From assembly GCF_016865255.1 (NCBI RefSeq), contig NZ_CP033381.1, positions 2,914,001 through 2,978,000 of the forward strand: 64,000 nt of DNA, written 5' to 3'. Under the pieces are notes generated by a model. It saw nothing but the letters and a program-made list of their open reading frames with translations, made no database searches and was not told the origin of the DNA. Positions within the stretch are counted from its first letter, which is position 1, and the number at the start of each line of letters is the position of its first letter. Positions 1,272 to 18,153 of the stretch are shown one piece after another. This stretch comes from Methylomonas sp. LW13 (GTDB lineage Bacteria; Pseudomonadota; Gammaproteobacteria; Methylococcales; Methylomonadaceae). The translations under genes and the position numbers were made by a program.

Positions 1272-1660
1272 TTGATTCTCGCTATCGAAACGGTGGCGTT
1301 CTTGCCGTCCGTGCCGCAATATTTATGTTTCTCGACCAGTAAATCCGACAATTCGGCATTGGCCGCTCTCAAAGCGGCCGCTTCCGCCACAGCCGGAGTA
1401 CCCATGTATTTCATGACCACCTCGGATGGATTCGGTACCGGGATGGTGGCCAGAGCCTCAGCCGGATAAAAATACAGCGGCCAATCGTATATCTGGGCTA
1501 GTTGTAACAAGGCTGCTTCATCATTTTTTTTGTCGATGCTGGCCAAGCCGGCTACCGTAGATACATCGAGCCCGCAACGCCACAAGGCCTGGGCCAAGGC
1601 TTGCCGCAAGGTATCCAGGCTGGCATTGCGGTCGCAACCCATGCCAATCATGACTTTCAT
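1268..1660 (-). CDS. cobE: CobE / CbiG C-terminal-domain protein
   Basis: A 130-aa protein starting MKVMIGMGCDRNASLDTL, the typical start of CobE and of the CbiG C-terminal domain (G-x-G-C followed by a helix). In CbiG this domain cooperates with the N-terminal half in opening the A-ring delta-lactone of cobalt-precorrin-5A. Here the two halves are separate consecutive genes. I chose ATG 1658-1660 because the frame upstream of it overlaps the preceding gene and reads as shadow sequence. The stop (1268-1270) overlaps the cobJ ATG, which suggests translational coupling. The 4-nt gap to the upstream cbiG half supports a common transcript. Confidence 0.88.
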   Translation of the reverse strand: MKVMIGMGCDRNASLDTLRQALAQALWRCGLDVSTVAGLASIDKKNDEAALLQLAQIYDWPLYFYPAEALATIPVPNPSEVVMKYMGTPAVAEAAALRAANAELSDLLVEKHKYCGTDGKNATVSIARIK

Positions 1661-1664
1661 ACAC

Positions 1665-3171: not shown

Positions 3172-4468
3172 CGTGACCGAATAATATGGGCTGCAAAGAA
3201 TGGGTGGCAGATACGATCCACACTGGATTTTCGGCCTGCATGCGATGCATATTGAGAATCGGGCTACTACGCGAGGCTTGAATCTGACAGACGTCCCAGT
3301 CTGCGCCGAGTTGTTTCAGGGTATCGACGGCGGTGGACAGGTTTTCCAGCGTGACGAAGTTCATCACCAGCCAACCCGCCGGGCGCAAACGCCCTAAACA
3401 CAAGGCTATCAATTCCGCCAATTCGCCACCGGAACCGCCGATGAATACTGCATCCGGATCGGGCCAGGTGTCGAGAAATTGCGGCGCCTTGCCATGCACG
3501 AAGCTGTAATTGCTGATACCCCAGGCAGCCTGATTCTGTTCGACATTAGCCATGTCATCGGCGTTTTTTTCGATGGCAAAGACATGACCCTCCGAACACA
3601 GCCGCGCCGCCTCCAAACCCACCGATCCGGAGCCGGCGCCGATGTCCCAGACAATACTTCGACGCGCCAATTGCATCCTCGCCAACGATACCGCACGCAC
3701 TTCGCGTTTAGTGATCAGGCCTTTTTCCGGCTTGCGCTGCTGAAAGCTGTCGTCGCTGACGCCAAACAATACCGGTGCGGACAAAGCCGTTTTACGTTTT
3801 AGAATGACGATGTTGGGATCGAGATAACGGCTTTGAGCGACCTCCGCGATACTCAGCCAGGCGTTGACTTGCTGTTGCGGCTGCTTTAGAGCTTCAGCAA
3901 TCGCCATTTCGAACGCATCAGCCAAGCCTTCGATTTGCAATAAGCGGGCGATACGTGCTGGGGTGTTGTCCGGGCTGGTCAATATCGCCAGCAAATCGTG
4001 TTGGCGGCAGCGCTGGGCTAATTCGTACAAGCCATGTTCCGGCGTGGCCCCGCGCAGCCATTCACCGGCATCCTTACTGTGGATCGAAACGATAGCAGCG
4101 GCTTGCCAAGACAATTTCAACTCGGCAAAAGCCAATTGCAGGGTGCTCAGATTGGGCAGGATACTCACACGGCTGGATTCCAGTTTGCCGGCCAGAAACC
4201 CGGCGATGCCGTGACACAAGGGGTCACCAGTAGCCAGTACCGCGACCGCTTCATTTTGTGCCAACGCGGCATTGATCCAGTCCGGCACTTGTTTGATTTG
4301 CCCGGTTAAGTCGTAGTGTCTGGCTTCAATGATGTCATCAGCCAGCGTTGCCAGCAGACGGCTACCGGCAATGACATGTTTGGCTTCGCGCAATGCCTGC
4401 AAGGCCTCCTGGCTCAGGCTGGCGACGCCGTTGTCTAGTACGCCGATAAAACTGCACATCGCTTGCAT
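3161..4468 (-). CDS. cobL: Fused CobL (CbiE-CbiT) precorrin-6B C5,C15-methyltransferase/decarboxylase
   Basis: 435 aa from ATG 4466-4468, which is preceded by AGGA at about 7-10 nt; an upstream in-frame ATG lies inside cbiD and is less likely. Residues 1 to about 200 are the CbiE tetrapyrrole methyltransferase (LREAKHVIAGSRLLATL; VAVLATGDPLCHGIAGFL). About 215-435 are a CbiT-type Rossmann methyltransferase that opens with LITKREVRAVSLARMQL and has the SAM loop WDIGAGSGSVGLEAARL. The fused enzyme methylates C5 and C15 and decarboxylates the C12 acetate. Fusion is the CobL arrangement; enteric bacteria have separate cbiE and cbiT. The stop overlaps the cobI start. Confidence 0.93.
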   Translation of the reverse strand: MQAMCSFIGVLDNGVASLSQEALQALREAKHVIAGSRLLATLADDIIEARHYDLTGQIKQVPDWINAALAQNEAVAVLATGDPLCHGIAGFLAGKLESSRVSILPNLSTLQLAFAELKLSWQAAAIVSIHSKDAGEWLRGATPEHGLYELAQRCRQHDLLAILTSPDNTPARIARLLQIEGLADAFEMAIAEALKQPQQQVNAWLSIAEVAQSRYLDPNIVILKRKTALSAPVLFGVSDDSFQQRKPEKGLITKREVRAVSLARMQLARRSIVWDIGAGSGSVGLEAARLCSEGHVFAIEKNADDMANVEQNQAAWGISNYSFVHGKAPQFLDTWPDPDAVFIGGSGGELAELIALCLGRLRPAGWLVMNFVTLENLSTAVDTLKQLGADWDVCQIQASRSSPILNMHRMQAENPVWIVSATHSLQPILFGHDEH

Positions 4469-4470
4469 GA

Positions 4471-5574
4471 TCAATTCCTGCCGGCTTCGGCCAGTTTGTT
4501 GCCATCGAAATCGCACACCAGAACACTGATGTGAAAACCGCCGGGATAACGGTTTTCCAAGGTGGCGATGACTCGGTTAGCCAGTTCGACATGAAATTCG
4601 TATTCCAATCCCAGCTCGGCCATGCATTCGGAGGCGTAACGAGCGGTTTCCTGGGCGGCGATGGCGTCGCATACATCGTCCGGCGCTCCGATGCTGCGGG
4701 CAATGTCGGCCACCAGTTCCACATCGACTGGGGCGCGACCGGCATGCGTAATGGTTTCACCCTGAGCCATTTTGGTCAGCTTGCCGACCATACCGCCAAT
4801 GATGATGTTTTGAATGCCGCAACGAGCGGCGGTGTCCAGTGCCGGTGTCAGAAAGTCACCCATTTGCACGAAACAGCTTTCATCCAGGTCGGGCAATTCG
4901 CGCATCACGAATTTCTCGGTGCGGCCGCCGGTGGTCAGCACCACGCTAGCCTGCCCCTGATTGGCCGCAACTTCCACGCCTTGCACCACGCTAGCCCGAA
5001 ACGCCGCCGTGGAATACGGATGCACGATTCCGGTCGTACCTAGAATCGAAATACCGCCGATAATGCCCAAACGATAATTCAGGGTTTTTTTCGCCATCTC
5101 TTCGCCGCCCGGCACCGAGATCGTTACCTGTAGACCTCGGGTTTTTAGCGCTTCGGCGGCGATCAGACGGATGTTATCCTCGATATTTTTGCGCGGAACC
5201 GGATTGATGGCCGGACCGCCGACCGCCAGCCCCAAACCGGGCCGAGTGATCAGGCCTATGCCCGCGCCGCCTTGCAATACGATAGTATCCGGTTGTTCTA
5301 TCCACATCACATCCGCCGTCAGCCGAGCGCGATGGGTGCAGTCCGGATCGTCGCCGGCGTCTTTTTCGATGACAGCATGTGCTCGGTCGTTCTGTACGAA
5401 GCTTTCTTCGACTTTGAATGCCACGTCTTGCCCATTGGGCAGCACGCAGTCGATAGTGTCCGGCACGCGCCCATTCAGCAAACCCTGCACTGCCGCCCGT
5501 GCCGCTGCCGCCGAACAGGCGCCGGTGGTGTAACCCTTGCGGGTACCTTTGGGTTTGCGTTCCGGCATTGCCAT
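4471..5574 (-). CDS. cbiD: CbiD, cobalt-precorrin-5B C1-methyltransferase
   Basis: 367 aa, normal CbiD length. The N-terminal KGYTTGACSAAAARAA block, the LPNGQDVAF segment and the Gly-rich VLQGGAGIGLITRPGLGL followed by NPVPRKNI are hallmarks of CbiD, which uses SAM to methylate C1 of the ring after CbiG has opened the lactone. CbiD belongs to the early-cobalt pathway; its partner reductase (CbiJ/CobK) is not in the window. A second possible start lies two codons in (MPERKP). The gene sits 2 nt before the cobL start and 4 nt after cobH, in the same operon. Confidence 0.94.
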   Translation of the reverse strand: MAMPERKPKGTRKGYTTGACSAAAARAAVQGLLNGRVPDTIDCVLPNGQDVAFKVEESFVQNDRAHAVIEKDAGDDPDCTHRARLTADVMWIEQPDTIVLQGGAGIGLITRPGLGLAVGGPAINPVPRKNIEDNIRLIAAEALKTRGLQVTISVPGGEEMAKKTLNYRLGIIGGISILGTTGIVHPYSTAAFRASVVQGVEVAANQGQASVVLTTGGRTEKFVMRELPDLDESCFVQMGDFLTPALDTAARCGIQNIIIGGMVGKLTKMAQGETITHAGRAPVDVELVADIARSIGAPDDVCDAIAAQETARYASECMAELGLEYEFHVELANRVIATLENRYPGGFHISVLVCDFDGNKLAEAGRN

Positions 5575-5578
5575 GCTA

Positions 5579-6247
5579 TCAGCCGTTTTTCTGCCGGGTT
5601 TCCGCCAAGCTCAACAAGGCATGAATCGCCGCGACGACCAAGGTCGAGCCGCCTTTACGTCCACGGGTGATGATCCATGACACATCGGCTAATTCGGCGA
5701 GTAAATCCTTGGATTCCGCTGCAGAGACAAAACCGACTGGCATCCCGACGATCAGTGCCGGCTTGACGCCTTCTTCTTTGATCATCCGCAACACTTCCAA
5801 CAGCGCGGTCGGTGCGTTGCCAACTGAGACGATACCGCCGGCGATTAAACCCAGGCGCTGCGCTTTACGCATGGCTTGTACCGCGCGGGTACTGTTGACC
5901 TGTTTGGCGGCGGCTATGACATCCGCATCGGCGATGAACTGGCGGGCGCTGATGCCAAAATGCGCCAGGCGCGGCTGCGATAAGCCGACGCAAATCATTT
6001 CCACGTCGGCAACGATCGGCGCACCATTTAAAATGGCTTGAGTACCATCTTCGACTGCATGCGCGGAAAACTCGGTCAGGCCATTAAACTCAAAATCCGC
6101 AGTGGCGTGGATCATGCGACGCACCACTTGCCATTGGCCGTGGGAATAATGGTGCTCGCCGACTTCGCGGTCGACGATGGCAAAGGAATCGTGTTCGATT
6201 TGTTGCCCAGCCTGGGTCAGTTGTTCGGTTTGAATGTTGTGGCTCAT
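5579..6247 (-). CDS. cobH: Precorrin-8X methylmutase (CobH/CbiC)
   Basis: 222 aa, slightly longer than typical CobH/CbiC (about 210). Family blocks include IVDREVGEHHYSHGQWQVVRR with RMIHATADFEF, where the His is the expected catalytic residue, NGAPIVADVEMICVGL, and ALIVGMPVGFVSAAESK. The enzyme migrates a methyl group from C11 to C12 to give (cobalt-)hydrogenobyrinate. Starts at ATG 6245-6247, 6 nt after the cbiX stop; the next gene begins 4 nt downstream. Confidence 0.93.
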   Translation of the reverse strand: MSHNIQTEQLTQAGQQIEHDSFAIVDREVGEHHYSHGQWQVVRRMIHATADFEFNGLTEFSAHAVEDGTQAILNGAPIVADVEMICVGLSQPRLAHFGISARQFIADADVIAAAKQVNSTRAVQAMRKAQRLGLIAGGIVSVGNAPTALLEVLRMIKEEGVKPALIVGMPVGFVSAAESKDLLAELADVSWIITRGRKGGSTLVVAAIHALLSLAETRQKNG

Positions 6248-6253
6248 GGCTAA

Positions 6254-7075
6254 TCAATGATGGTGGTGATGTTCGGCTTGCTCGCGATACTGACAGCCGT
6301 CGCATTCCAGCATTTTCGGCGCGAGCGGGTCCCAGGCTTCGGTAACCCGTTGATCAAGCAATTTAAAAATGGCCGGATCAAAACCAAAATAAGTGCCGGC
6401 ACCGAAGACAATCTGCGGATATTGGCTTTGCAAGCGTTCGATTTGTTTGCCGATGCGCTCGATCAGCAAGCCGGTAAACAGGTAATAGGGCAAAATCGCA
6501 ATCTGCGTCATGCCCAGTCGTACTTGACGTTGCACGGCGGTTTCCAAACGCGGATGGGTAATACCGGTGAAGGCAATGTCGACGAGTTCATGCTCGGTAG
6601 CTTCAAACAGCCAACGCGCTAATTTTGCCAATTCCCCGTTGGCGACTTTGTCGGAGGAGCCACGGCCTAAAATGATCACGCCGGTAGTTTTAGGATCCGG
6701 CATCGCCAGTGATTTAAGCGCTGAATTGAGCTGTTTTTGCAGTATGGCCAACAAGGTTTCGTTACTGCCTAGATGCGGCGCATAGATGAATTCGACGGTT
6801 GGAAATTTTTCGCGGGCTTCCTCGATATGCTCGGGGATCTCCATCTTCACATGCCCGGCGGCGCTGATGATCAGCGGTACGATTATCACGCGGCTAGATC
6901 CTTGCGCGGCGCGGCTCAATCCTTCTTCCAACAGCACCTCGGCGAGTTCGATATAGCACAACTCGATGCGCCAGTCAGGGTGTTGCGCCTGCCATTGTTG
7001 TTGAAATTCGCGAATTTCATCGTTGCCGGCCTGATTGCGCGATCCGTGGCCGACCAAGAGAACGGTGGTTGTCAT
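6254..7075 (-). CDS. cbiX: CbiX sirohydrochlorin cobaltochelatase with His5 tail
   Basis: 273 aa, the long two-domain CbiX form. VLLVGHGSRNQAGNDEI at the N-terminus and GVIILGRGSSDKVANGELA in the second half are the two chelatase-fold repeats; LIISAAGHVKMEIPEH carries a metal-binding His. It inserts Co2+ into sirohydrochlorin and so commits siroheme precursors to B12. The C-terminus has ECDGCQYREQAE followed by five consecutive His before the stop. C-x2-C and His-rich tails are known in some CbiX proteins as Fe-S or metal-holding segments. Gaps to both neighbours are 2-6 nt. Confidence 0.93.
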   Translation of the reverse strand: MTTTVLLVGHGSRNQAGNDEIREFQQQWQAQHPDWRIELCYIELAEVLLEEGLSRAAQGSSRVIIVPLIISAAGHVKMEIPEHIEEAREKFPTVEFIYAPHLGSNETLLAILQKQLNSALKSLAMPDPKTTGVIILGRGSSDKVANGELAKLARWLFEATEHELVDIAFTGITHPRLETAVQRQVRLGMTQIAILPYYLFTGLLIERIGKQIERLQSQYPQIVFGAGTYFGFDPAIFKLLDQRVTEAWDPLAPKMLECDGCQYREQAEHHHHH

Positions 7076-7077
7076 GC

Positions 7078-7878
7078 TTATTCCTTAGGCTGAGGCCGCT
7101 CGGCGCGGCGAAAACGATGCGTAAAACCGGCATCATAAAGTTTGGATTTTTTTAACGATGGCCAGTGCCTCGCGCCCAAGGTGGGGCTAATCACGATCAT
7201 GGCCTGACTGTTGATTTTGGCGGCCCGGCAGCGTTCGCGAATATCAGCCAGGGTGCCGCGAATAATCTGTTGTTCACCCGGCCAGCTGGCCTTATGAACC
7301 ACCAATACCGGGGAATCATCAGCCCAGTTGGCGGCTTTTAATTCGCGCTCGATCAAGGGCAACAAGGTGATCGATAAAAACAGGCACAGCGTGGTGTGAT
7401 GGCTGGCCAATTCTTGCAAGGATTCACCGTCCGGCATTGGTGTGCGGCCTTCAACGCGAGTCAAAATCACGGTCTGCGTGACTTCCGGCAAGGTCAGGCT
7501 TTCGACTGCGCAAGCCATCGCAGCAAATGCCGACGAGACGCCCGGCACTACTTCGACGGCAATGTTGGCCGCATCCAGTGGTTGCACCATTTCAATCAAT
7601 GCACCGTACAAGCCAGGGTCGCCGGTTTGCAGGCGAATGACGGTTTTGCCCGGACCGGCTTGTTCGGTCAGCCAGTTGGTAATCTGCTCCAAAGTCATGT
7701 CTTTGGAATCTTTGATCACGCAAGCGCTTGGTGCCCATTGCGTCGCTGCGGCCTGTACCAGAGAGCCTGCGAACAAAATGGCATCCGCTTTGGCAATTAA
7801 GTCGCGACCTTTGACAGTGATTAAATCAGGATCACCGGGACCTGCGCCGACAAACCATACTTTAGGTTGAGTGCTCAT
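7078..7878 (-). CDS. cobM: Precorrin-4 C11-methyltransferase (CobM/CbiF)
   Basis: 266 aa tetrapyrrole methyltransferase. VWFVGAGPGDPDLITVKGRDL is the classic CobM/CbiF N-terminus; RLQTGDPGLYGALIEMVQPL and VEVVPGVSSAFAAMACAVESL are the SAM and substrate loops, and TVILTRVEGRTPMPDGESL is a CobM-specific block. It methylates C11 of precorrin-4 or its cobalt form. The start at ATG 7876-7878 overlaps the cobB stop by 4 nt. The C-terminal tail after the fold is short and basic. Confidence 0.94.
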   Translation of the reverse strand: MSTQPKVWFVGAGPGDPDLITVKGRDLIAKADAILFAGSLVQAAATQWAPSACVIKDSKDMTLEQITNWLTEQAGPGKTVIRLQTGDPGLYGALIEMVQPLDAANIAVEVVPGVSSAFAAMACAVESLTLPEVTQTVILTRVEGRTPMPDGESLQELASHHTTLCLFLSITLLPLIERELKAANWADDSPVLVVHKASWPGEQQIIRGTLADIRERCRAAKINSQAMIVISPTLGARHWPSLKKSKLYDAGFTHRFRRAERPQPKE

Positions 7879-9173
7879 AGAAAAAATCCAGCCGCGACCT
7901 GGGGGTTGAACGGAAAGTAGGTGTGCAGATAAGACGCTCGCAACGAACCCACCTGATAAAAGTTTTCGCTACGGCTACGATTGCGTTGAGGCTTCGATTC
8001 GGTGAACGGCTGCTGTATGGTTTCCAGTTGCGAGTGATGAAAGCTATGCCCGCGAATTTCGCCTTGTTCTAACTGCAAACTGTGCATGCCCAGATTCACC
8101 AAGCGTTTTTGCATCTGCGCGCTGCCGGGTAACAGACCAGCCATCGCTGCCGCATGGCCGTCTTTATCGATCAAGCGTTCCAGCAAATATAAAAAGCCGC
8201 CGCATTCTGCGTAAATCGGCTTACCGGCTTGATGATGTTGCTGCAAGGCTTGTTTCATGGCGACATTGTCGGCCAATGTTTGGAGATGCAGTTCCGGGTA
8301 ACCGCCGGGCAGGTAGACACTGTCTGCCTCGGGAAATACGTGGTCTGCGAGCGGCGAGAAAAACGTCAGTTCAGCGCCCATGGCTTGCAAACAATCCAGA
8401 TTGGCTTGATAGATAAACGAAAACGCCGCATCACGAGCCACAGCGATAAGCTTACCAGCCAGTAACGGTGGCGGCGGGGAGGTGGCGATCGGCGCGAAGG
8501 CAACCGGCTGCGGCAATCGGCACGGCGCATGGCTACTGAGTAATTCGGCTGCGCGCGCCAGGCGAAGGTCAAGGTCTGCAATTTCATCGGCCTGCACTAA
8601 GCCTAAGTGCCGCGACGGCAAGCCGACCGTTTCATCTTTCGCCATCGCCGCCAGTAGCGGCATGCTGTCCGGCAAGGCTTCTTCCAGCAATTTAGCATGA
8701 CCCGGACTGCCGACTTTGTTGGCGATGACGCCGACAAACGGCAAGTTGGCTCTGTAATGGGCTAAGCCATAAGCCACAGCGGCAAAAGTTTGTGCCATGC
8801 CGCCCGCATCGATGACAACGGCCACCGGCACGTCTAGTGTTTGTGCCAAATCGACGCTGCTGCTATCGCCGTCGAACAAGCCCATGACACCTTCAATCAA
8901 GATGATGTCAGCGTCGGCGGCGTTATAAAGCATCTCACGGCAATGCGCTTCGCCCATCATCCATAAATCCAGCTGATAAACCGGTTGTCCGCAAGCAAAG
9001 CTCAATATTTGCGGATCGATAAAATCCGGGCCGGTTTTGAACACGCGTACCTTGCGGTTTTGCTGGCGATAGTAATAGGCCAAAGCCGCCGTAATGGTGG
9101 TTTTGCCTTGCCCGGAGGCAGGAGCGCTGATCAATATCGCCGGGCAATGGCGTGTTGCAGTAGCATTCACCAC
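7875..9173 (-). CDS. cobB: Cobyrinic acid a,c-diamide synthase (CobB/CbiA)
   Basis: 432 aa. The N-terminal half is a P-loop (ILISAPASGQGKTTITAAL) of the DTBS/CbiA fold; ILIEGVMGLFDGDSSSVDLA is the family signature. The C-terminal half is a class I glutamine amidotransferase with the nucleophile in KPIYAECGGFLYLLE. It amidates the a and c side chains of cobyrinate using ATP and glutamine. The start is a GTG: the upstream sequence reads TAGTGGTG, so the cbtA stop shares one base with GTG 9171-9173 (a second GTG follows at once), and no ATG fits. Normal CbiA length is 430-460 aa. Confidence 0.93.
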   Translation of the reverse strand: MVNATATRHCPAILISAPASGQGKTTITAALAYYYRQQNRKVRVFKTGPDFIDPQILSFACGQPVYQLDLWMMGEAHCREMLYNAADADIILIEGVMGLFDGDSSSVDLAQTLDVPVAVVIDAGGMAQTFAAVAYGLAHYRANLPFVGVIANKVGSPGHAKLLEEALPDSMPLLAAMAKDETVGLPSRHLGLVQADEIADLDLRLARAAELLSSHAPCRLPQPVAFAPIATSPPPPLLAGKLIAVARDAAFSFIYQANLDCLQAMGAELTFFSPLADHVFPEADSVYLPGGYPELHLQTLADNVAMKQALQQHHQAGKPIYAECGGFLYLLERLIDKDGHAAAMAGLLPGSAQMQKRLVNLGMHSLQLEQGEIRGHSFHHSQLETIQQPFTESKPQRNRSRSENFYQVGSLRASYLHTYFPFNPQVAAGFFL

Positions 9174-9820
9174 TAAAACGTTACTTTACGCAACAATCGG
9201 CCCGATATTGCGCCCAAGGTCAGCCAGAAAATAGCGTTGTTGATGGATGTCAACACCACAAAATGCTGTTGTAAGGCTTCGGGCGCTAAAGCCTGGGCAA
9301 CCTCCGGATGCGGTGCGCCGATCAGATGCGGTAAGGCCAGTAAGCCAGCGCCGCCGATTTGCAACCAGCGCTGTTTGGTCAAAAAAAGACCAAACAAGCC
9401 AATCGCGGTAGCGGCGGCCGTAAAAAGCCACCACGCTTGGCGACTGTGCAATTCGGCGCTGTCGGTGCCGGGCAATTCCGGCGGCAAACCCAATGATGGC
9501 GCGACATAAAACACCCAATAACCGGCCAAACCCCAGCCGAGTCCATACAGATAACCGCGTTGGTCTCGCCAATACATGGAAGCACTGATCAATAAGGCAA
9601 AGCCGAAGCCGGTCAGGCCATTGAACAGCAAGGTAAAACCATTGCGTTGCCATCCATCCATCGGCTGCCAGTCATGCACATGCTCAGCCGATGGCGTTTC
9701 GAATTGTTCGGCGGCCAAAATCAAGGGCAAGGTTTGATAGTGTTGTAGCACGCTGAGTAACAAGCCGCCCAATAGTCCCGCCAGTAGCGAGACTGCGACC
9801 AGCTTACGAAAATCCGCCAT
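9173..9820 (-). CDS. cbtA: CbtA family predicted cobalt transporter subunit
   Basis: 215 aa integral membrane protein with about five or six hydrophobic segments (residues 8-25, 60-83, 90-110, 130-146, 150-168, 190-208). It has the CbtA pattern: AVSLLAGLLGGLLLSVLQHYQ at the N-terminus, GLGWGLAGYWVFYVAPSLGL and PPELPGTDSAELHSRQAWW in the middle. CbtAB are predicted cobalt transporters that occur with B12 genes and B12 riboswitches; the function is inferred from such context in the literature. The gap to cbtB is one base, and its stop overlaps the cobB GTG. Confidence 0.9.
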   Translation of the reverse strand: MADFRKLVAVSLLAGLLGGLLLSVLQHYQTLPLILAAEQFETPSAEHVHDWQPMDGWQRNGFTLLFNGLTGFGFALLISASMYWRDQRGYLYGLGWGLAGYWVFYVAPSLGLPPELPGTDSAELHSRQAWWLFTAAATAIGLFGLFLTKQRWLQIGGAGLLALPHLIGAPHPEVAQALAPEALQQHFVVLTSINNAIFWLTLGAISGRLLRKVTF

Positions 9821-9821
9821 G

Positions 9822-9998
9822 TTAATGGCAAGGAAAAGCTGCGCTGTGACGTCCGTCGTGGGCGGCGTTATGCAGGTAGTTGTTAGCGTCCTGCAAGAAA
9901 CCCAAACCTAACACGACGGTCAGGCCCAAAACAATAGCACTCAGGCCGGGCAGGATTTTTGAGGAAGAAAGGGTGGTAGATGCCGCGAGTGTTTTCAT
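9822..9998 (-). CDS. cbtB: CbtB family small cobalt-transport protein
   Basis: 58 aa, first gene of the operon. One transmembrane segment (about residues 18-36, SAIVLGLTVVLGLGFLQ) is followed by a His-rich C-terminus, HNAAHDGRHSAAFPCH, which is the CbtB signature and probably binds cobalt. I chose ATG 9996-9998 because the longer in-frame reading would start inside the riboswitch leader. It pairs with cbtA one base downstream. Confidence 0.9.
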   Translation of the reverse strand: MKTLAASTTLSSSKILPGLSAIVLGLTVVLGLGFLQDANNYLHNAAHDGRHSAAFPCH

Positions 9999-10099
9999 GG
10001 TTGTCTGTTCCGAATAAGGTGGACGGAATAACAGAGGGAAAGACAAACCAAAAAAACCGATTTGACAGATCGCCCTCCGCAATACTGTTGACTACAGTT

Positions 10100-10215
10100 T
10101 TAGGCCTGTCTCCGGGCTCGTGACGAATCACCTACCGTTGCGGGGGCAGCGTCGGCATTTAACCGACTTCCAGTTTCACCCGCCAAGAGCGGGAACCTTA
10201 AAACCAGCGGCGATT
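10100..10215 (-). promoter_or_regulatory. Cobalamin (B12) riboswitch
   Basis: Read on the minus strand, the leader contains the conserved order of a cobalamin riboswitch: a GGTTCCCG..GGCGGGTGAAACTGG 5' segment (about 10172-10197), an imperfect stem, the CCCCGCAACGGTA core (10134-10147), and the B12 box GCCCGGAGACAGGCCT (10102-10117). It ends about 100 nt before cbtB. Adenosylcobalamin binding normally blocks expression of the downstream genes, so the whole cbtB-to-cobJ operon should be repressed when B12 is plentiful. Boundaries are approximate; the family call is firm. Confidence 0.95.
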
Positions 10216-10295
10216 GTATGCCGCAGCTAGTCGTAGGGCAAATGAAATGTATTGAAATAAGAATAAACGGTGCGGCAGCAGCTCCTCTCGACAAG

Positions 10296-11279
10296 TTATC
10301 GATCAACCAGTAATCGCCCGCAACGAGTGATTCTATCAAAACTAAACACATGCTCTCTCGGGCTTTCATAACACCGTCCCACTAACCTCCGTCGATAATC
10401 CGGTTCGCCTTTTTCGAGATAAATAGTGGCGCCACAAATGGGACATGGCGCCGAATACCGAACTAACCGAATTACTCTTAAATCTCCATCTCGAAGCAGT
10501 TCGAACTGCGCAGACTGTTCATAAAAATTTGTGAATAGTTCATGGGCTACGACAATTCGGTCATCCAACAATAATATCCAAGGCTTGATGATAGTTACCC
10601 AGGAACCATAGGGAATCGCGAAAATACTGACCAGTAATGTCAAATCTTGCGTTGTCACCGGCCTAGGCACGGATAACGATAGCCATCCGGCATAGGCAAT
10701 TAACAATGCAAGTCCGCCTATTGTCGCCAACCAGCCCAGTACGCCCCATACATGCCATCGGCGTAATTCGATTTGTCCGTGCCGAAATAACCAACTCGCG
10801 ATCCAACTGGGTTTGACTTCACCCAATTCTGTCAGTTGATAGCTGGCTTGCAAATCGGCTACGTTGCTCCCAGCCCGAACATCCTCGATTGCTTGGTCTT
10901 CTTCCAATATCACCGGAACCGTTTCAGCTTTGATATAAAACGTCGTGTGTCGTCCCGGCCCTCCCTTTGTGCTTTTACGCTCCGGCTTTGGATAATGCGA
11001 AAGCCTACGCTTACGGGCAAACTCCATGATTTGCGGTTCACGGATTTCGCAATATTTTTTTAACGAACCCGGCCAGTCGATCCATTTTTTAGGTTCGGCA
11101 CTGTCTAAGGACTCACCAACAGCAGCGACGATTACATCGGCCGTGAAACGTCGCTCCGACTCTTCGAAATCCACTTTCTTTAACGATTCCTGAGCTAACG
11201 CGCGCAATATGCGGTGGCCTTTTTCATCGCTTGGCTCACTATCCAACCAATCGATCAAGCATTGAATTACCTCGCGCAT
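10296..11279 (-). CDS. Hypothetical membrane protein with C-terminal zinc ribbon
   Basis: 327 aa from ATG 11277-11279 (a TTG twelve bases earlier is a poorer start). I recognise no named family. Residues 1 to about 170 are soluble and basic in the middle (KPERKSTKGGPGRHTTFYIK). Two hydrophobic segments follow near 180-203 (VLGWLATIGGLALLIAYAGW) and 213-236. The C-terminus has CPICGATIYLEKG and a later Cys in GRCYES, resembling a zinc ribbon. It is divergent from the FlhDC-like operon and lies between it and the B12 leader, so it may mark the left part of the island. Base composition and context suggest accessory DNA; function unknown. Confidence 0.65.
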   Translation of the reverse strand: MREVIQCLIDWLDSEPSDEKGHRILRALAQESLKKVDFEESERRFTADVIVAAVGESLDSAEPKKWIDWPGSLKKYCEIREPQIMEFARKRRLSHYPKPERKSTKGGPGRHTTFYIKAETVPVILEEDQAIEDVRAGSNVADLQASYQLTELGEVKPSWIASWLFRHGQIELRRWHVWGVLGWLATIGGLALLIAYAGWLSLSVPRPVTTQDLTLLVSIFAIPYGSWVTIIKPWILLLDDRIVVAHELFTNFYEQSAQFELLRDGDLRVIRLVRYSAPCPICGATIYLEKGEPDYRRRLVGRCYESPREHVFSFDRITRCGRLLVDR

Positions 11280-11291
11280 AAACCACCCCAA

Positions 11292-11716
11292 ACCAGGTAA
11301 CCGGTAGTTGCGGTCTAGTTAGCGAATAGCCGATTCATAACAATGTCCTCCATAACGAATGCGAGATGAGCGAAGTAAAAATGATTTTGGAAAGCACTTA
11401 TTCAGGTCAAACGCCAATTAAGACTCCACTTGTTGTGGGCAAAGCCTCTAATAAGCAGAACGAGGTTAGAAGAATTTCAGAATCATTCAATCCATCAAAC
11501 CATGCAAATTGCCTGGCGTTATCAAATTGGCCGTCCATCACATGCGGAAAAACGCATTACCAGCTTAATAAGCCAATTATTTTCAACAACGCCAATTCAT
11601 ATCAACCGGGGTTTCCGGAGATTTGTGACCCAAAACAGGTCACTTTGCGACCGGGACATTTGCGTGCTGCCCTCATAGCATATCGACAACAGTCGTTAAT
11701 CAACTAAGAGGCGTTT
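11292..11716. other. Divergent intergenic region of the island
   Basis: 425 bases between the membrane-protein gene and the first FlhD-like gene. It must hold the promoters for both directions, but I cannot place a convincing -35/-10 pair. It contains one possible small gene (11366-11707), annotated separately with low confidence. No copy of the repeat found at the integrase end was seen here. Confidence 0.4.
11366..11707 (+). CDS. Possible hypothetical protein upstream of the FlhD-like gene
   Basis: An open frame of 113 codons ending 9 nt before the FlhD-like start. No family is recognised, and another shorter frame overlaps most of it, so coding status is uncertain. Codon choice looks plausible and the C-terminus RPGHLRAALIAYRQQSLIN is not low-complexity. 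There is no strong ribosome-binding site before the ATG (GAATGCGAG). It could be the first gene of the operon, or leader sequence. Confidence 0.3.
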   Translation: MSEVKMILESTYSGQTPIKTPLVVGKASNKQNEVRRISESFNPSNHANCLALSNWPSITCGKTHYQLNKPIIFNNANSYQPGFPEICDPKQVTLRPGHLRAALIAYRQQSLIN

Positions 11717-12010
11717 ATGTCAACACTGGATGAAGACCTTGCCCGGGTAAATTTCGAATATCTCATGCTAGCCAGAGAATGCGCACGCAGTAATCCTGAA
11801 GAAACGGCCTGGCGCTTCGGATTAGATCGGGCTGGCATAGACCGTCTCGCCGGCATGACACAAGAGCAACTTCGTGAACACGCCGAAAGCAGTCGCGCAG
11901 TGATTCAGTTATTGCCTGTCTATGCCCCAAGCAACTTGCCCATGGTTGCCTATGTAGATCTTCTCCAACCTTGTATCACTAGAACTGCGGATGAAACCAA
12001 TGCCCTTTAA
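11717..12010 (+). CDS. FlhD-like transcriptional activator subunit (first pair)
   Basis: 97 aa, compared with about 116 in enteric FlhD. The pattern follows FlhD: LARVNFEYLMLARECARSN aligns with the FlhD segment beginning D-I-N-L-S-Y-L-L-L-A-Q-R, then AWRFGLDRAGIDRLAGMTQE aligns with the M-F-R-L-G-I and L-A-x-L-T segments. FlhD forms a hetero-oligomer with FlhC and activates transcription. The equivalent of the conserved FlhD cysteine is absent here (SSRAVIQLLPVY). The start has AAGAGG 5 nt upstream. The end overlaps the FlhC-like start by 20 nt, which fits obligate co-expression. Family assigned by eye; the target is unknown and need not be flagellar. Confidence 0.75.
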   Translation: MSTLDEDLARVNFEYLMLARECARSNPEETAWRFGLDRAGIDRLAGMTQEQLREHAESSRAVIQLLPVYAPSNLPMVAYVDLLQPCITRTADETNAL

Positions 12011-12608
12011 AAGCAGATCAAACATAGGCGCAGACTTGCTCTTGGCGGAAAAACTAATTCAACTCGGCGCCCGCCCGCCAATTGTCAGCCAACTATGCCA
12101 TTTAACCCGAAAACAAAGCATCGCATTTTTTAAAGCTGTAAAAGGACAATCGCCCAAACAAGGCATGCTGCCACATGATTATCAATGGGTCATCCGCTCA
12201 GCATTCAACAATATTCATGCTTCTTTATTTTTAAGCATTATTGAAGACATTCGGCACCGGCTTTCTACCCCAAACCTGAATGCAACCTTACTAGTTGCGG
12301 CCTACGAGATTTACAGCAATGTCGCTTCCAGAATTTTACCCAATCGACAATGTATCCAACCACTTTCCAGCCAATATTATCCGTTAGATATCAACCGGGC
12401 TTGGTATTTAATCGGCCTGCTCTCAGCGGGTGATTTGGTATTCATTTTTTGCGGGCGTTGCCACGCCCGTTACTTGGGAATGATTCATCCCGAGGTCGCA
12501 TTTAGCCAATGCCCAATCTGCGATGTATGGACTGATCGCTCAGGTCGGCGGCGCTGGGTTTCCGCAAAATCAAAAATGCTCACATTGAACAAACCAAACG
12601 CTCGTTAG
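11991..12608 (+). CDS. FlhC-like transcriptional activator subunit (first pair)
   Basis: 205 aa, compared with about 192 in E. coli FlhC. Shared blocks: LLLAEKLIQLGARPPIVSQL at the N-terminus, FKAVKGQSPKQGMLPHDYQW (FlhC has a K-E-x-R-G-x-x-P-P-K-G-M-L-P-F block), then NNIHASLF and a LVAAYEIY segment. The C-terminal zinc site is complete: CGRC and CPIC separated by 18 residues, matching the four-Cys site of FlhC. It should bind DNA as a complex with FlhD. A second start at 12000 (MPFKSRS) is possible. Similar FlhDC relatives on mobile elements (SetCD, AcaCD, SgaCD) activate transfer genes. Confidence 0.8.
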   Translation: MKPMPFKSRSNIGADLLLAEKLIQLGARPPIVSQLCHLTRKQSIAFFKAVKGQSPKQGMLPHDYQWVIRSAFNNIHASLFLSIIEDIRHRLSTPNLNATLLVAAYEIYSNVASRILPNRQCIQPLSSQYYPLDINRAWYLIGLLSAGDLVFIFCGRCHARYLGMIHPEVAFSQCPICDVWTDRSGRRRWVSAKSKMLTLNKPNAR

Positions 12609-12638
12609 GCATTCCATCAGCTACTAAGGAGAAGTCGC

Positions 12639-13232
12639 ATGCATATCGTTGTCGTCACAGCCACCAGTTCCCAAATTCCTCAGTCGGTTCATGGCAAAAA
12701 TCTCGCGCGATTGGCTCGCGAATGCTTTGCCAATCAACAGTCGCTGACAATTGATTTTAGGGACGTTAAAAACATCACCCAGGGGTTCTTTCAGGAATTG
12801 TTTTTGCCATTGGTCGCTGAATTCGGATCCGATTTTCTGAAATCGAAACTGAAAATAGTCAATATGGCTGGGCACGTCGATAACATTATGCAGTCAGCAT
12901 TCAAAAATCTGAAGGGCTACTTTGACAAATTGACGACGATCGATCAGCTGGGATGCGATGAAGAGATTTATACCATGAATCAGGCCTGGCTCATCAAAGC
13001 TAGGGAAATCGCTAGAGAAAATTCAGTATTGACGGAATTGGTGCTGGGAATTTCGGACGAATCCATGCGATCAGCCGTTGGGTGCTTATCCCTAGAAGAC
13101 ATCGATTTCATTGCCCGCTCCAACTGGCTATGTTTTACCCCTCGGTTTTCGAGTCAATTTATCCAAAGCATCAAGAAAGACTCTCCCCCAATGGCGGAAG
13201 CCATGCTCGGATTAAGTGGCACTATTGATTAA
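12639..13232 (+). CDS. DUF4325 (STAS-like)-FlhD fusion protein (second pair)
   Basis: 197 aa with two parts. Residues 1 to about 95 look like the STAS-like DUF4325 domain: SLTIDFRDVKNITQGFFQEL followed by KLKIVNMAGHVDNIMQSAF. Residues about 108-165 follow FlhD closely: MNQAWLIKAREIARENS, then VLGISDESMRSAVGCLSLED and ARSNWLCFTPRF, where the Cys sits at the position of the FlhD disulfide cysteine. I know of no described fusion of this kind. A strong AAGGAG precedes the ATG. It follows the first FlhC-like gene by 30 nt and precedes a second FlhC-like gene by 12 nt. Roles for both domains are inferred. Confidence 0.75.
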   Translation: MHIVVVTATSSQIPQSVHGKNLARLARECFANQQSLTIDFRDVKNITQGFFQELFLPLVAEFGSDFLKSKLKIVNMAGHVDNIMQSAFKNLKGYFDKLTTIDQLGCDEEIYTMNQAWLIKAREIARENSVLTELVLGISDESMRSAVGCLSLEDIDFIARSNWLCFTPRFSSQFIQSIKKDSPPMAEAMLGLSGTID

Positions 13233-13244
13233 GGGAGGCAGCTA

Positions 13245-13712
13245 ATGCTCATGAAATATCAACAACAAACCTTGGCGATAGAACTGCTCAATCTCCATGC
13301 GAAAGTCAAAATCGTGCATCAAGCAACGGGAGTACCAATAAAGTTACTGAGGCAGACATACCGTCAATTACATGGCCAATCGCCCAGTCGTGGATCGATC
13401 AAGTTTTCAACCCGAGGTTTGACCGGTAGTCGCCGTAAGTATAAAGATGTAACCATCTTCGCCGTGTGTTTTCAGGTTGCCACGGCCAAATCGAAAGAAG
13501 GCCAAATCCAGACGCTAATTACTGCCTTTAATGCGTATAAAAAATCATATCCCTTGGGACAACTCGAGTTTTCCGATGCTTGGGTGGTGGCACAGGACAT
13601 CAAAGATAAACGAGTTCAACTTTCGAAGTGTCCACAATGTCAATCTTGGGTTTTGTTAAAAGCCCGTGAAGATCTCACTGATCGCTGCAGCATCTGCAAA
13701 ATACATTTATGA
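13245..13712 (+). CDS. Short FlhC-like protein (second pair)
   Basis: 155 aa. The N-terminus QQTLAIELLNLHAKVKIVHQ and the block LLRQTYRQLHGQSPSRGSIK match the FlhC start and its K-x-x-R-G-x-P-P-K-G motif. A region with LITAFNAYKKSYP corresponds to the A-Y-x-L-Y helix, and the C-terminus has CPQC and CSIC, a complete four-Cys zinc site (SKCPQCQSW, DRCSICK). It is about 40 aa shorter than FlhC, mainly in the middle. GGGAGG lies 7 nt before ATG 13245. It presumably partners the DUF4325-FlhD protein; which partners mix in vivo cannot be told from the sequence. Confidence 0.75.
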   Translation: MLMKYQQQTLAIELLNLHAKVKIVHQATGVPIKLLRQTYRQLHGQSPSRGSIKFSTRGLTGSRRKYKDVTIFAVCFQVATAKSKEGQIQTLITAFNAYKKSYPLGQLEFSDAWVVAQDIKDKRVQLSKCPQCQSWVLLKAREDLTDRCSICKIHL

Positions 13713-13834: not shown

Positions 13835-14137
13835 ATGAGTAACGCCCATAAACATCAGTCGGTATTGAGACCCATCATGATTGATCTTGAGGCGGTTTCA
13901 GAAGTCACAGGGCTTTCTGAATCTACCATCCAATCATTGATTCGTGCCGATGAGTTCCCTAAGCCTCGTAAAGCATCTGCACGCCGTTCCTGCTGGTTAC
14001 TACGCGAAATTGAAGAATGGGCTGAGTCGCGTCCTGTTTCCGATTTATTACCCCCTCCTAATACGGCAATAGGCGGACGCAACGGCAAACCTAAATCTAG
14101 AAATTTGCCAATGACTCAAGATGCTCTGACAGATTAA
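13835..14137 (+). CDS. AlpA-family helix-turn-helix regulator
   Basis: 100 aa from ATG 13835 (a later start at 13877 is possible; both upstream regions lack a good ribosome-binding site). MIDLEAVSEVTGLSESTIQSL, then LIRADEFPKPRKAS and SCWLLREIEEWAESRP form the AlpA/HTH_17 pattern (a winged helix with a P-x-P wing and a W at the end). AlpA proteins regulate integrase/excision in P4-type elements. The gene converges on the integrase, and the two coding ends overlap by 41 nt, so antisense interference is possible. It lies downstream of the FlhDC-like operon on the same strand. Confidence 0.75.
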   Translation: MSNAHKHQSVLRPIMIDLEAVSEVTGLSESTIQSLIRADEFPKPRKASARRSCWLLREIEEWAESRPVSDLLPPPNTAIGGRNGKPKSRNLPMTQDALTD

Positions 14138-15386
14138 AGAGCCATAGGCGTTTTTCATCGTCATATTGATGCCGATTATAAGTTCCTACCACACCGGGTA
14201 ACATATGACCGAGAATCGTTTCACCTACGGAATCTGGACATCCTAATTTTGCAAGCAAGGTGCGTGAAGTCCGTCGCAAATCATGCGGTGCCCAATGAGT
14301 CACCGTTAATCGAGGCCTCACCTGCTCAGGGCGTATCTGACTATAGGGCTGTCTATAAAACACCTGTTCAGTGACGTATTTTTGTTCGATGTGCCCCACT
14401 TTATGACGGGATGGAAATAGAAAACCGTCTCCATACAATTTTTTCCGCCGTAACACCACTGCCAAACCCCTACCGAATAAGGGCACCCTTTGATCTGTAG
14501 CAGTTTCATGTCGAGCATTTTTCGTTCTAATTTTCGGTATCGTCCACCAAACTTGACCGCCCTCTTCACTAATTTCAGTTCCTGACATGCCGACAATTTC
14601 TGAGCCGCGAGTTCCGGTCCAAAGATATAACATTAGAACGTCAGTAATTATCGGTGCGAAATTTGGAAGCCAAGCTATCAATTCTCCGATTTCGTCTTCA
14701 GTGAGTACGCGTTTGACCACGCCGATGTTCTTACCTTCTATGGTCTTTCCTTTTGATCTAATTTTTCCACGTAAAATTAAGCGCCACCAATTTACTGCAG
14801 CTTCAGGTAGTCTGCCGGCATCCATTGCATAATCCCATGCTGCTCCTAACTCACATCGTAATTTTCCGGCCTGCACGGGCGATATTGCGGCGTACTTTTG
14901 AATCAAATCAAAAGCCATTGAGCGGGTAATTGCAGTGGATGGTAAATCCGCCATATCACCCAGCATTGTGTTAAACATCCTAATAATTTCAGTAGAACCT
15001 TTTTTGGCTCTGTGGCGACAAACATGTCCAGCTAAATATTCATCACACAGCACTCTAACTGTATAAGCGTTTTCAGAATTTGCCGCCTCTTGTTTTAATA
15101 TTAAAGCTTTTGCCTCTAACTTAGCTTGCTTTGCCTCTAATACAGGATCATTACCAGAATCACGCTGGTTTTTCAAAGCTTCCCAAGCGACAATAGCCAC
15201 GGGAAATGACATAGATGGCCAATGACCAATTGACACCTGCCTAAGGCGTCCATCAACAGTGCTTCTATACCGATAAAACCAAGTTCTCACTTTTGCCATG
15301 GCAGACAAACGCAGTCCTGGGTAATCGTCAAAAGCCATATGCTGTCCTGGCTGCAAAGCTTTAGCGGTGCGGGCATCGAATTGCAT
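14097..15386 (-). CDS. P4-type tyrosine integrase
   Basis: 429 aa. The N-terminal Arm-binding domain (DUF4102 type) reads GLRLSAMAKVRTWFYRYRS and QVSIGHWPSMSFPVAIVAW. The C-terminal catalytic domain has the tyrosine-recombinase set: R in LWTGTRGSEIVGM (about residue 258), HDLRRTSRTLL (about 367), GH in ETILGHMLPGV and Tyr in GTYNRHQYD (about 402). It should catalyse site-specific integration and excision of the island. It starts at ATG 15384-15386, inside the left arm of the 18-bp inverted repeat, which may be an integrase binding site. No other transfer or replication gene is present. Confidence 0.92.
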   Translation of the reverse strand: MQFDARTAKALQPGQHMAFDDYPGLRLSAMAKVRTWFYRYRSTVDGRLRQVSIGHWPSMSFPVAIVAWEALKNQRDSGNDPVLEAKQAKLEAKALILKQEAANSENAYTVRVLCDEYLAGHVCRHRAKKGSTEIIRMFNTMLGDMADLPSTAITRSMAFDLIQKYAAISPVQAGKLRCELGAAWDYAMDAGRLPEAAVNWWRLILRGKIRSKGKTIEGKNIGVVKRVLTEDEIGELIAWLPNFAPIITDVLMLYLWTGTRGSEIVGMSGTEISEEGGQVWWTIPKIRTKNARHETATDQRVPLFGRGLAVVLRRKKLYGDGFLFPSRHKVGHIEQKYVTEQVFYRQPYSQIRPEQVRPRLTVTHWAPHDLRRTSRTLLAKLGCPDSVGETILGHMLPGVVGTYNRHQYDDEKRLWLFNLSEHLESLANF

Positions 15387-15552: not shown

Positions 15553-18153
15553 ATGAATATCCAAACAAAACAAGACAGCAGGCAAGGCAACAAAACACAG
15601 CACACCCCGATGATGCAACAATATATGCGCATCAAATCCGGCCAGCCTGACACGCTGTTGTTTTACCGAATGGGAGATTTCTACGAGCTGTTTTTCGATG
15701 ATGCGAAAAAGGCCGCGCAGTTATTGGATATTACGCTGACCGCTCGCGGGCAGTCCGGCGGCCAACCCATCCCTATGGCCGGCATTCCTTATCATGCAGC
15801 GGAAAACTACATCGCCCGCCTGCTTAAACAAGGCGAATCGATTGCAATCTGTGAGCAGATCGGCGACCCGGCCAAATCCAAAGGTCCAGTAGAACGCAAG
15901 GTGGTGCGCATCGTCACGCCAGGCACTGTCACCGACGAAGCGTTGTTGGAGGATCGCAAGGACAACCTGCTGGTGGCTTTAGCCGTATTCGACAAGTTCT
16001 TCGGGCTGGCTTGCCTGGACTTAGGCAGCGGGAAATTTACACTACAGCAATTGGACAGCGAAACCCAGCTACTTAGCGAGATCGAGCGCTTGAACCCGGC
16101 TGAATTGTTGTATAGCGAGGATATTAAACTGCCGTCGGCCATCAAGGAACGCCGGGGCTTATGCAAACGGCCGCCCTGGCATTTTGACTTGGATAGTTGT
16201 CGGCTATTGATTTTAAAGCAGTTCAACAGCCACGATTTAAAAGGCTACGGCTGCGAACATTTACCGTCGGCCATTTGCGCGGCAGGTTGTTTGTTGCAAT
16301 ACATCCGCGATACCCAGCAAAGCGCCCTGCCCCATATTCAAGGCATCCGCGTCGAGAACAGCGACGACAGCATTAGCTTGGACGCCGCCAGCCGCCGTAA
16401 TCTGGAGCTGGACAGCCATCCCAGCGGCCAAATGCAATACACCTTGTTGGGGGTGTTGGACAAAACCGCCACCGCGATGGGCAGCCGTTGCCTACGGCGT
16501 TGGATACACCGACCGCTACGCGATCATGCCGTTGTCAATGGCCGTTACGCCTGCATCGCCAGCCTGTTGCTGAATCATTTACATGAAGATCTACAAGCCA
16601 GCCTGCGTCAGGTGGGCGATATAGAACGGATTAGCTCTCGGATTGCTTTGAAGTCAGCGCGACCACGTGATTTACTGGTATTGCGACAGACCTTGGCGGT
16701 TTTGCCGCAACTGCAAAACCAACTGGCCGATAGCGACAATCCGCATCTGGAAAGCCTGCGAACGCAATTGCGCGAACAACCGCAATTACTGGCCCTGTTG
16801 CAACGCGCCATCATAGACAATCCGCCGGTGCTGATTCGCGACGGCGGTGTGATTGCCCCCGGTTATCATCCTGAGTTGGACGAGTTGCGTAATCTCAGTC
16901 AAAACGCCGACCAGTTTCTGATCGATATGGAACTGCGCGAACGAGCGGCTACAGGTATCGCTACACTCAAGGTCAATTACAACCGAGTGCACGGTTATTA
17001 CATCGAGATTTCCAATGCCCAAGCCGACAAAGTCCCGGTGCATTACACCCGCAAACAAACGCTGAAAGGTGCGGAGCGCTACATCACGCCGGAGCTTAAA
17101 TCTTTTGAAGACAAGGTGCTAAGTGCCCGCGAAAAATCCCTGTCCTTCGAGAAAGCCTTATACGATCAGTTGCTGGAAACGCTAGGCAATGCGTTACTCG
17201 ATCTGCAGCAGTGCGCCAATGCCTTGGCCGAACTGGATGTGCTGGTCAATTTTGCCGAACGTGCCGAAACCTTAAACTTGTCCCAACCGATATTGGACCA
17301 ACAGCCGGGCATCGACATTATCGCCGGCCGGCATCTGGTGGTGGAAACGCTATCCAGTATTCCCTTCGTCGCCAACGATCTTAATTTCTCAACAGAGCGG
17401 CGGATGCTGGTGATCACCGGTCCGAACATGGGCGGTAAATCGACTTATATGCGCCAAGCGGCATTGATTGTGCTGATGGCTCACATCGGCTGTTATGTGC
17501 CGGCGCAAGCACTGCGCTGCGGACCGATAGACAAGATATTCACCCGCATCGGTGCTTCCGACGATTTGGCCAGCGGCCGCTCGACTTTTATGGTGGAAAT
17601 GTCGGAAACCGCCAATATTCTGCATAACGCCACCAGCAACAGCTTGATATTGATGGATGAAATCGGCCGCGGTACCAGCACCTTCGACGGCTTATCGTTG
17701 GCTTGGGCTTGCGCCGATTATTTGGCTCGCCACACTCAGGCATTCACGCTATTCGCGACCCATTATTTCGAATTAACCACGTTGGCCGAAGAACAAGGCA
17801 ATATCCATAACATCCATTTGGACGCGATGGAACACGGCGACAAGATCGTATTTTTACATGCCGTGAAAGACGGTCCGGCCAGTCAAAGCTACGGTTTACA
17901 AGTGGCGGCACTGGCCGGCGTGCCGCAGAGTGTGATTGCCAACGCCAAAAACAAGTTGGCCCAACTGGAAAACACCGCCTATATCGAGCTGCAAAATCAT
18001 AGCGAAATCAACCAGTTTGATTTATTCACCAGTCAGGAATGCCATCCGGCGGTCGTGCTGCTGGAAGAACTCGATCCCGATCATTTAAGTCCTCGGCAAG
18101 CATTGGACGCTTTATATCGATTGAAAGCGCTGCTAAAAGCTAACAAGCGTTGA
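15553..18153 (+). CDS. mutS: DNA mismatch repair protein MutS
   Basis: 866 aa from ATG 15553; the frame is open upstream but the earlier stretch has no MutS similarity and lies in island junction DNA. The N-terminal mismatch-recognition domain has [20 protein letters not shown] and the F-x-E motif in [13 protein letters not shown]. Then come the connector, the core, and a C-terminal ATPase with Walker [14 protein letters not shown] and the signature [13 protein letters not shown]. It recognises mismatches and recruits MutL. Length equals standard MutS1. The island lies just upstream, but the coding sequence is intact. Confidence 0.97.

Follow-up and report, generated by a model that had tools for sequence, protein, structure and literature searches.

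A predicted two-tier FlhDC-type switch on an integrative and conjugative element of Methylomonas sp. LW13

FlhDC-type activators set when some widespread conjugative elements move. We describe here a four-gene set of this family (module A) in a 64-kb stretch of the genome of Methylomonas sp. LW13 (hereafter, the window; positions 2914001–2978000 of the single 5.23-Mb contig NZ_CP033381.1). Module A comprises four consecutive plus-strand genes (11717–13712) for an FlhD-like protein (D1), an FlhC-like protein (C1), a STAS (DUF4325)–FlhD fusion (SD2) and a short FlhC-like protein (C2), and is followed by an AlpA-like gene and an opposite-strand tyrosine integrase gene (Table 1). It resides in an integrative and conjugative element (ICE) with a second set, module B, that encodes a lytic transglycosylase, an FlhD (DB) and an FlhC (CB). 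What was read from the sequence is the four genes, the ICE and the order of its genes, together with the upstream dyads and the module that each dyad follows best. We propose, with a probability of about 0.6, that module A activates module B via one dyad (O3) and that module B activates transfer via another (O2). In this view, a family of methanotroph ICEs and plasmids would use module A as a dedicated transcription activator of the FlhDC family. Its products would bind O3 before the transglycosylase-FlhD-FlhC operon to turn module B on, and module B would bind O2 before traI, the traL operon, traF-H-G and ssb to turn on mobilisation, pilus and recombination genes as the positional equivalent of SetCD/AcaCD. 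In elements without module B, module A would act on transfer directly.

Pfam and profile matches on the plus strand support the gene order FlhD, FlhC, DUF4325-FlhD and short FlhC proposed by an initial annotation made from the sequence alone. The four-cysteine sites it described in both FlhC-like proteins are complete as well, with the CxxC...CxxC pattern kept in C1 and C2. Its assignment of FlhD to two of the proteins stands for D1, which matches the family on its own; the FlhD half of SD2 is weak as a single sequence (0.009, under the Pfam cut-off) but firm as a profile of 27 relatives, which matches the FlhD of PDB entry 8j56 at 9.5e-8 (residues 104–181). Membership in the FlhDC family thus rests on significant FlhC and FlhD matches, those of the SD2 half being obtained via the family profile only. 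FlhD chains also ranked top in a fold search with SD2 at a probability of 1.00, with weak E-values (best 0.011, none ≤0.001); the model had a predicted local distance difference test score (pLDDT) of 80 and a predicted template modelling score of 0.53. The STAS half matched VapS in a PDB profile search (5.7e-7, residues 3–98). The fusion could offer a new entry point for signals. In module A, the two D chains and the two C chains may assemble into one mixed complex. The ratio of non-synonymous to synonymous substitutions was 0.05–0.25 for the four genes in the pairs compared. In a long-branched tree, C1, C2 and CB form three clades, with C1 adjoining flagellar FlhC. The D1 frame stays open for ~112–121 codons further upstream in many loci (frames of 209–218 amino acids) and is closed in the window (11366–11707).

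The window's element is a full ICE of ~151 kb. A search with the DNA of the mutS start identified a second copy of this sequence at genome position 2778552, and comparison of the two (window 15553–15625 and genome 2778552–2778617) defined the size of the element because both mutS starts have the same core (Table 1). The element supplies a replacement 5' end for mutS, and its excision could affect mutS expression. Pfam matches between the attachment (att) copies include a relaxase (TraI_2, 3.6e-82), TraD, TraG_N, TraH, TraC, TrbI/TraB, TraU, TraN and a GHKL ATPase. The relaxase, coupling protein, TraC, TraG, TraH, TraU, TraN and module B lie ~40–111 kb to the left of module A. Thus, integrase, att repeats, relaxase, coupling protein and type IV secretion system were all found. 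The initial annotation was right about the adjoining AlpA and tyrosine integrase genes and about FlhDC relatives of mobile elements being linked to integration and transfer. Its statement that transfer and relaxase genes were lacking does not hold: a full relaxase and F-type system lies between the att copies and outside the window, where it could not be seen because the window cuts the element. A left end similar to that of the window's ICE was also seen in genome G066.

TraG is encoded at four places in the genome, and each of these transfer systems carries a single copy of module A and of module B. We refer to the window's element as ICE3 and to the others as ICE1, ICE2 and ICE4; the term ICE is used for all four, with att sites read for the window's element alone. 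Module A lies beside the integrase in ICE3 and beside module B in ICE1 and ICE4. In ICE2 and ICE3 the two modules are far apart and were assigned to one element by collinearity of the backbones. Module B has the order lytic transglycosylase, FlhD, FlhC and stands beside TraG (Pfam FlhC match of 7.3e-7 for CB of ICE1). The genome total of 12 FlhD-like and 12 FlhC-like domains (11 of each by Pfam and the twelfth of each by home-made profiles) gives three predicted FlhD/FlhC-like pairs per ICE, two in module A and one in module B. Such a set is not best explained by two activators that interfere or answer to different signals, as suggested earlier, since the operator pattern suggests a chain from A to B to transfer. 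Compared to ICE3, TraC is 95% (ICE1) and 100% (ICE4) identical and TraD 98% (ICE1) and 96% (ICE4). Most Tra proteins of ICE1 and ICE4 are 85–100% alike, with TraF of ICE4 (77%) and TraI (50–52%) as exceptions.

O2 is a 36-bp dyad (CTTGCAGCTGAT-N12-ATCAGCTGCAAG) located before traI, the traL operon, ssb and traF (traL, traF and ssb were named by eye). At ≤3 mismatches it was found at eight places in the 5.23-Mb genome, four in ICE2 and four in ICE3, with one each before traI, the traL operon, traF and ssb per ICE; the reversed-pattern control gave none. Genome-wide counts cover the ICE2/ICE3-type O2 and O3 only. ICE1 and ICE4 do not have this O2 and carry their own dyads of similar shape at the same promoters. 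The ICE1 dyad precedes traF and traI and has half-sites in common with its traL promoter, and the ICE4 dyad precedes traF, traI, traL and ssb. The four transfer systems of the genome therefore have three O2 types, one of them shared by ICE2 and ICE3. An automatic search for repeated long dyads returned none at the transfer operons of the Methylomonas plasmid pUP202 (first 100 kb) or in two stretches of plasmid pVCR94, a weak negative because the operators of ICE1 and ICE4 were also missed.

We typed the dyads of 32 of 38 traF promoters (a, 17; b, 3; c, 3; d, 1; e, 4; f, 4), with those of types a–e located 103–127 bp before the reference point. The other six belong to loci L176–L178, which have a plasmid-type TraH, to pUP202, to L171 and to L168. 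The latter has no type a O2, though its module B is 86% alike; a transposase gene (18356–19609, by eye) occupies the traF position. The type e ICEs set the two modules apart. Their module A is close to the window's (D1 82–93%, C1 83–87%, SD2 73–86% and C2 78–79% alike), their module B FlhD and FlhC are 53–59% alike, and their O2 is different. In the type a ICEs, the module B FlhD and FlhC are 77–96% alike and module A proteins as low as 62–75%. Mantel correlations with O2 distance in 22 ICEs were 0.93 for CB, 0.91 for DB, 0.78–0.82 for the four module A proteins and 0.08 for TraG. In partial tests, CB given C1 correlated at 0.82 (0 of 999 permutations) and C1 given CB at 0.30. The set of 22 leaves out loci without a paired A or B and L150, whose C2 is broken by an insertion; for L156, the second-ranked dyad was entered by hand. 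O2 is most likely the site of module B, a prediction based on how closely O2 distance tracks CB and DB and on the type e contrast. Module B would thus have a shared operator before the mob, mpf and recombination operons.

The predicted link from module A to module B is O3, a dyad (CGAAAAAC-N13-GTTTTTCG) before module B. At ≤2 mismatches, O3 was present at 21 of 21 loci (17 of type a, L168 and three of type e) and at none of 15 others; only 1 of 200 shuffled promoters reached two mismatches. Six of the 21 loci (L148, L151, L154, L160, L166 and L168) lack a paired module A. The counts do not include L174 (type e) and L158 (type c), where the stretch read contains no transglycosylase gene, and the scan of L178 covered 252 bases only. 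Within the genome, exact O3 is confined to the promoters of module B in ICE2 and ICE3. At two mismatches there were 11 further places, compared to four for the reversed control. At three mismatches, the window and L009 showed no O3 in the neighbourhood of module A, int or alpA.

Elements with one module only are also informative. Plasmid pUP202 carries module B and has no match to the STAS–FlhD fusion. The 349-kb plasmid of Methylobacter YRD-M1 has module A and F-type transfer genes, and profiles of all six FlhD/FlhC types matched only the module A frames in the whole record (E 0.01). An O3-like 29-mer occurs on this plasmid at eight places at ≤5 mismatches, seven of them on one strand; under a stricter count, the control found none in three shuffles of 249 kb. 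Five of the sites lie 40–75 bp before annotated starts: two at the SLT-traL and ter-traU-traN operons, and one each at traC, a replication gene and an ATPase gene that precedes the mob genes. The other three are at 91222, 311530 (~300 bp) and 218910 (on the other strand, ~130 bp before a plus-strand gene). Two similar sites each were found in the chromosomal loci L095 (5 and 6 of 29 mismatches) and L096 (9 and 9), at the ter and transglycosylase ends of the transfer clusters, and one each in L091 and L094 (7 and 6 mismatches). A candidate operator of module A shared by transfer operons was therefore seen in the A-only plasmid YRD-M1 but not in ICE2/ICE3. We give roughly even weight to a broader picture in which co-resident ICEs with near-interchangeable machines carry two-tier cascades whose module B and operator diverged into three separately switched key-and-lock sets, with module A driving transfer directly where B is missing, perhaps the older state.

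Several observations weigh against the cascade. O2 and O3 were counted in the promoters in which they were discovered, the whole-genome counts excepted, and certain A–B pairings rest on position or elimination (L173–L059 was assumed across scaffold ends, and L165–L071 was assigned by elimination, though 1.7 Mb apart). The dyads of type f are weak (8–10 of 13) and mostly farther upstream (three of four at -171). O3 may partly reflect kinship because the type e module B block is somewhat nearer to type a than those of types b and c; the only close counter-case is type f, which lacks O3 (3–4 mismatches) with a module B about as distant from type a as that of type e and a different module A. Another product travelling with the window-type module A could read O3. 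No clear O3-like dyad was seen before module B in types b and c, and neither O2 nor O3 was found before module A or the int and alpA genes of the window's ICE. The YRD-M1 site differs from the O3 core at 3 of 16 positions. Furthermore, O2 also tracks module A (correlations given above), with partial correlations of 0.24–0.33 (1 to 14 of 999 permutations) after controlling for B, and the permutation counts overstate significance because the ICEs are related.

This residual correlation and the O3-like sites at the transfer operons of YRD-M1 would also be expected without a cascade, if modules A and B shared their target transfer promoters and acted side by side there, whether in a single mixed FlhDC-type complex or as two alternative ones. 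We consider this fairly unlikely, as the type e ICEs combine nearly the same A with a different O2 and exact O3 is found at no transfer promoter of ICE2/ICE3. Alternatively, module A could be mainly an excision switch acting on the adjoining small helix-turn-helix (HTH) gene and the integrase gene, leaving transfer to module B alone. SetCD of SXT acts on xis and int, according to PMC4344509, and module A is followed by a small, often HTH-like gene and, in many loci, by an integrase of varied type. Yet the lack of O2 and O3 copies before alpA and int in the window's ICE, together with the restriction of exact O3 to module B promoters, makes an excision switch distinctly unlikely.

The STAS half of SD2 raises the prospect of a phospho-switch in which a GHKL kinase, such as the GHKL ATPase of the ICE, phosphorylates module A, as CapK/CapS and VapK/VapS do after DNA damage. 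CapS and VapS are under such control according to PMC13373217, the STAS half is homologous to VapS, and in ICE2 just the 331-aa gene (Table 1) separates the GHKL ATPase gene from module A. However, SD2 differs from the CapK/CapS and VapK/VapS/VapC systems in the fusion of STAS to FlhD and in the acceptor: the column aligned with the VapS acceptor serine (S48, read from the tag offset) has Ser in 1 and Thr in 2 of 27 members, which weakens this reading. A shifted acceptor is possible because the adjoining column has Ser or Thr in 22 of 27. The ATPase of the ICE also matches HATPase_c_3, an Hsp90-like family, and we judge a phospho-switch to be very improbable. Finally, in the earlier view the element is a small, SGI1-like island, mobilised by a helper that it senses or hijacks. 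This view fits the integrase, AlpA and regulator genes that alone were visible in the stretch first marked. Unless the left att copy belongs to another element, it is ruled out for practical purposes by that copy, by the relaxase, TraD and F-type transfer genes of the element's own between the two att copies, and by a backbone collinear with a second ICE.

FlhDC-like master activators are known from ICEs and plasmids (PMC4542580 and PMC4344509), including FlhD/FlhC-like pairs encoded next to TraG and a lysozyme-like gene (section 24 of PMC4542580). Module B resembles AcaCD/SetCD in having its own transfer genes, TraG and a lysozyme-like gene nearby, an arrangement like traF-traH-traG...SLT-acaD-acaC of the IncC plasmid pVCR94 (typed MOBH and MPF_F; the names acaD and acaC were assigned from the paper and the FlhC label). 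Unlike AcaCD/SetCD, the ICEs described here add a second, four-gene set, have three O2 types in one genome and show no operator at xis/int. The module A proteins match Pfam FlhC (Table 1) better than AcaC (1.5e-7) and CB of ICE1 (7.3e-7) do. In the 202-aa AcaD gene before the FlhC-family gene of pVCR94 (L119:22145–22750), FlhD was matched in the second half only. No Pfam family scored above the cut-off in the first half, so Pfam gives no support there to AcaD as a tandem FlhD-FlhD protein, as proposed by eye.

Module A shares with flagellar FlhD4C2 (E. coli; Cupriavidus, 8j56) the FlhD and FlhC families and the zinc-site pattern, with C1 as the clade nearest to flagellar FlhC in the tree. It differs in having no Mot/Che neighbours, two kinds of D and of C, a STAS fusion and an ICE location. 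Indeed, E. coli MotA, MotB and a CheA fragment (tblastn, E 1e-3) hit none of 46 loci, and E. coli FlhC hit 40 of them. The possibility raised earlier that the first pair is a flagellar regulator of the host is thus not supported; neither flagellar neighbours nor a lack of significant FlhC/FlhD matches, the two outcomes held to tell against the initial annotation, was encountered. According to PMC7423338, BisDC of ICEclc is an activator made of two proteins, one of them weakly FlhC-like, and is expressed from an alpA promoter under an upstream regulator. BisD carries a ParB domain, and there was no detectable FlhD domain in BisDC. The first tier there is the regulator BisR, whereas here it would be another FlhDC set. 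Among the open-licence literature matches listed, we found no paper on a tandem FlhDC set, a DUF4325-FlhD fusion or a Methylomonas FlhDC ICE. As far as these matches show, the STAS–FlhD fusion, the constant four-gene set, the coexistence of modules A and B and the operator types that follow module B within one genome are new. If true, the cascade would place a two-tier FlhDC switch on a mobile element. The four closely similar transfer systems of one genome would then be a natural experiment in which activator and operator changed together while the machinery stayed constant. The operator sequences make it directly testable with reporters.

Of 251 genomes of the order, 37 had strong matches to the fusion (E ≤6.6e-24), all in the window's family. 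In 14 more the match was weaker or covered one half, and 11 of these genomes belong to another family. Both halves were matched in the host's own genome only among 369 genomes of the class, with part of one half in eight others. TraH was found in 18 of 18 genomes of the genus with a strong fusion match (in G036, as a fragment only) versus 2 of 14 without (32 genomes covered by both searches). We read module A at loci from the fusion hit list (40 places plus those of the own genome, partial, weak, short-contig or unchosen hits being omitted). The four-gene set was present with all genes in order at 40 of 44 loci. At the other four, one of which is at a contig end, no D1 was detected, and three also had no detectable C1. 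Within the 40 complete loci, C2 is short in L093, D1 lies 2 kb off in L088, and C2 of L069, from a same-species genome, is split by two genes (L069:7470–9828; an IS21-type transposase pair by eye). Pairwise distances of the four proteins correlate at 0.94–0.98 (38 loci), as expected for linked genes. Synonymous distances jump between SD2 and C2, from 0.54 to 1.68 between the window and L009 and from 0.80 to 0.06 between the window and L064, which suggests recombination within the four-gene set (11991–13712) relative to these two loci.

Table 1. Module A, its upstream dyad and neighbouring features of the window (window coordinates).
Feature	Position	Strand	Evidence or remark
Gene 1, FlhD-like (D1), 97 aa	11717..12010	+	Pfam FlhD 1.3e-6
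Gene 2, FlhC-like (C1), 205 aa, four-Cys site	11991..12608	+	Pfam FlhC 5.6e-23; clade adjoining flagellar FlhC
Gene 3, STAS (DUF4325)-FlhD fusion (SD2), 197 aa	12639..13232	+	Pfam DUF4325 1.1e-10
Gene 4, short FlhC-like (C2), 155 aa, four-Cys site	13245..13712	+	Pfam FlhC 4.4e-16; separate clade
O1 dyad, TTTGTGACC-N7-GGTCACTTT	11622..11646		95 bp before gene 1 (D1)
ICE cargo, cobalamin-biosynthesis-like genes to cbtA/cbtB (by eye, from translations)	1..10283		ICE3/ICE2 comparison
Conserved 331-aa protein, no family; two membrane helices and Cys-rich C-terminus by eye	10296..11291	-	Divergent from module A
AlpA-like small HTH protein, likely excisionase/regulator	13835..14137	+	Phage_AlpA 8.7e-10; start uncertain, frame open from 13772
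Tyrosine integrase of the ICE	14097..15386	-	Pfam Phage_integrase 3.8e-10 and arm-binding domain
Right attachment site in 5' coding end of mutS	15600..15625		Core from 15603; left copy at genome 2778594

The left part of the window is cargo of the ICE and interrupts the backbone between the genes for the GHKL ATPase and the 331-aa protein. We identified it as such because the ICE2 backbone has no gap at that point (contiguous at 1402595|1402555), where ICE3 is split by 13.4 kb. The 331-aa protein matched no Pfam or NCBIfam family at E 1 and gave a poor model (pLDDT 57); its gene is present at 22 of 44 module A loci. The small genes that follow C2 elsewhere (n = 10) matched AlpA, HTH_17 or Exc above the cut-off in five cases and below it in three, with no match in two. 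At 7 of 7 further loci, the same type of integrase adjoins mutS (identified by eye). Upstream of module A, the O1 dyad was not seen in L083, L088, L089 or L091–L096. A sequence resembling O1 lies 94–98 bp upstream of D1 in ICE types a, b, c, e and f and is thus kept across ICE types whose regulators otherwise differ.

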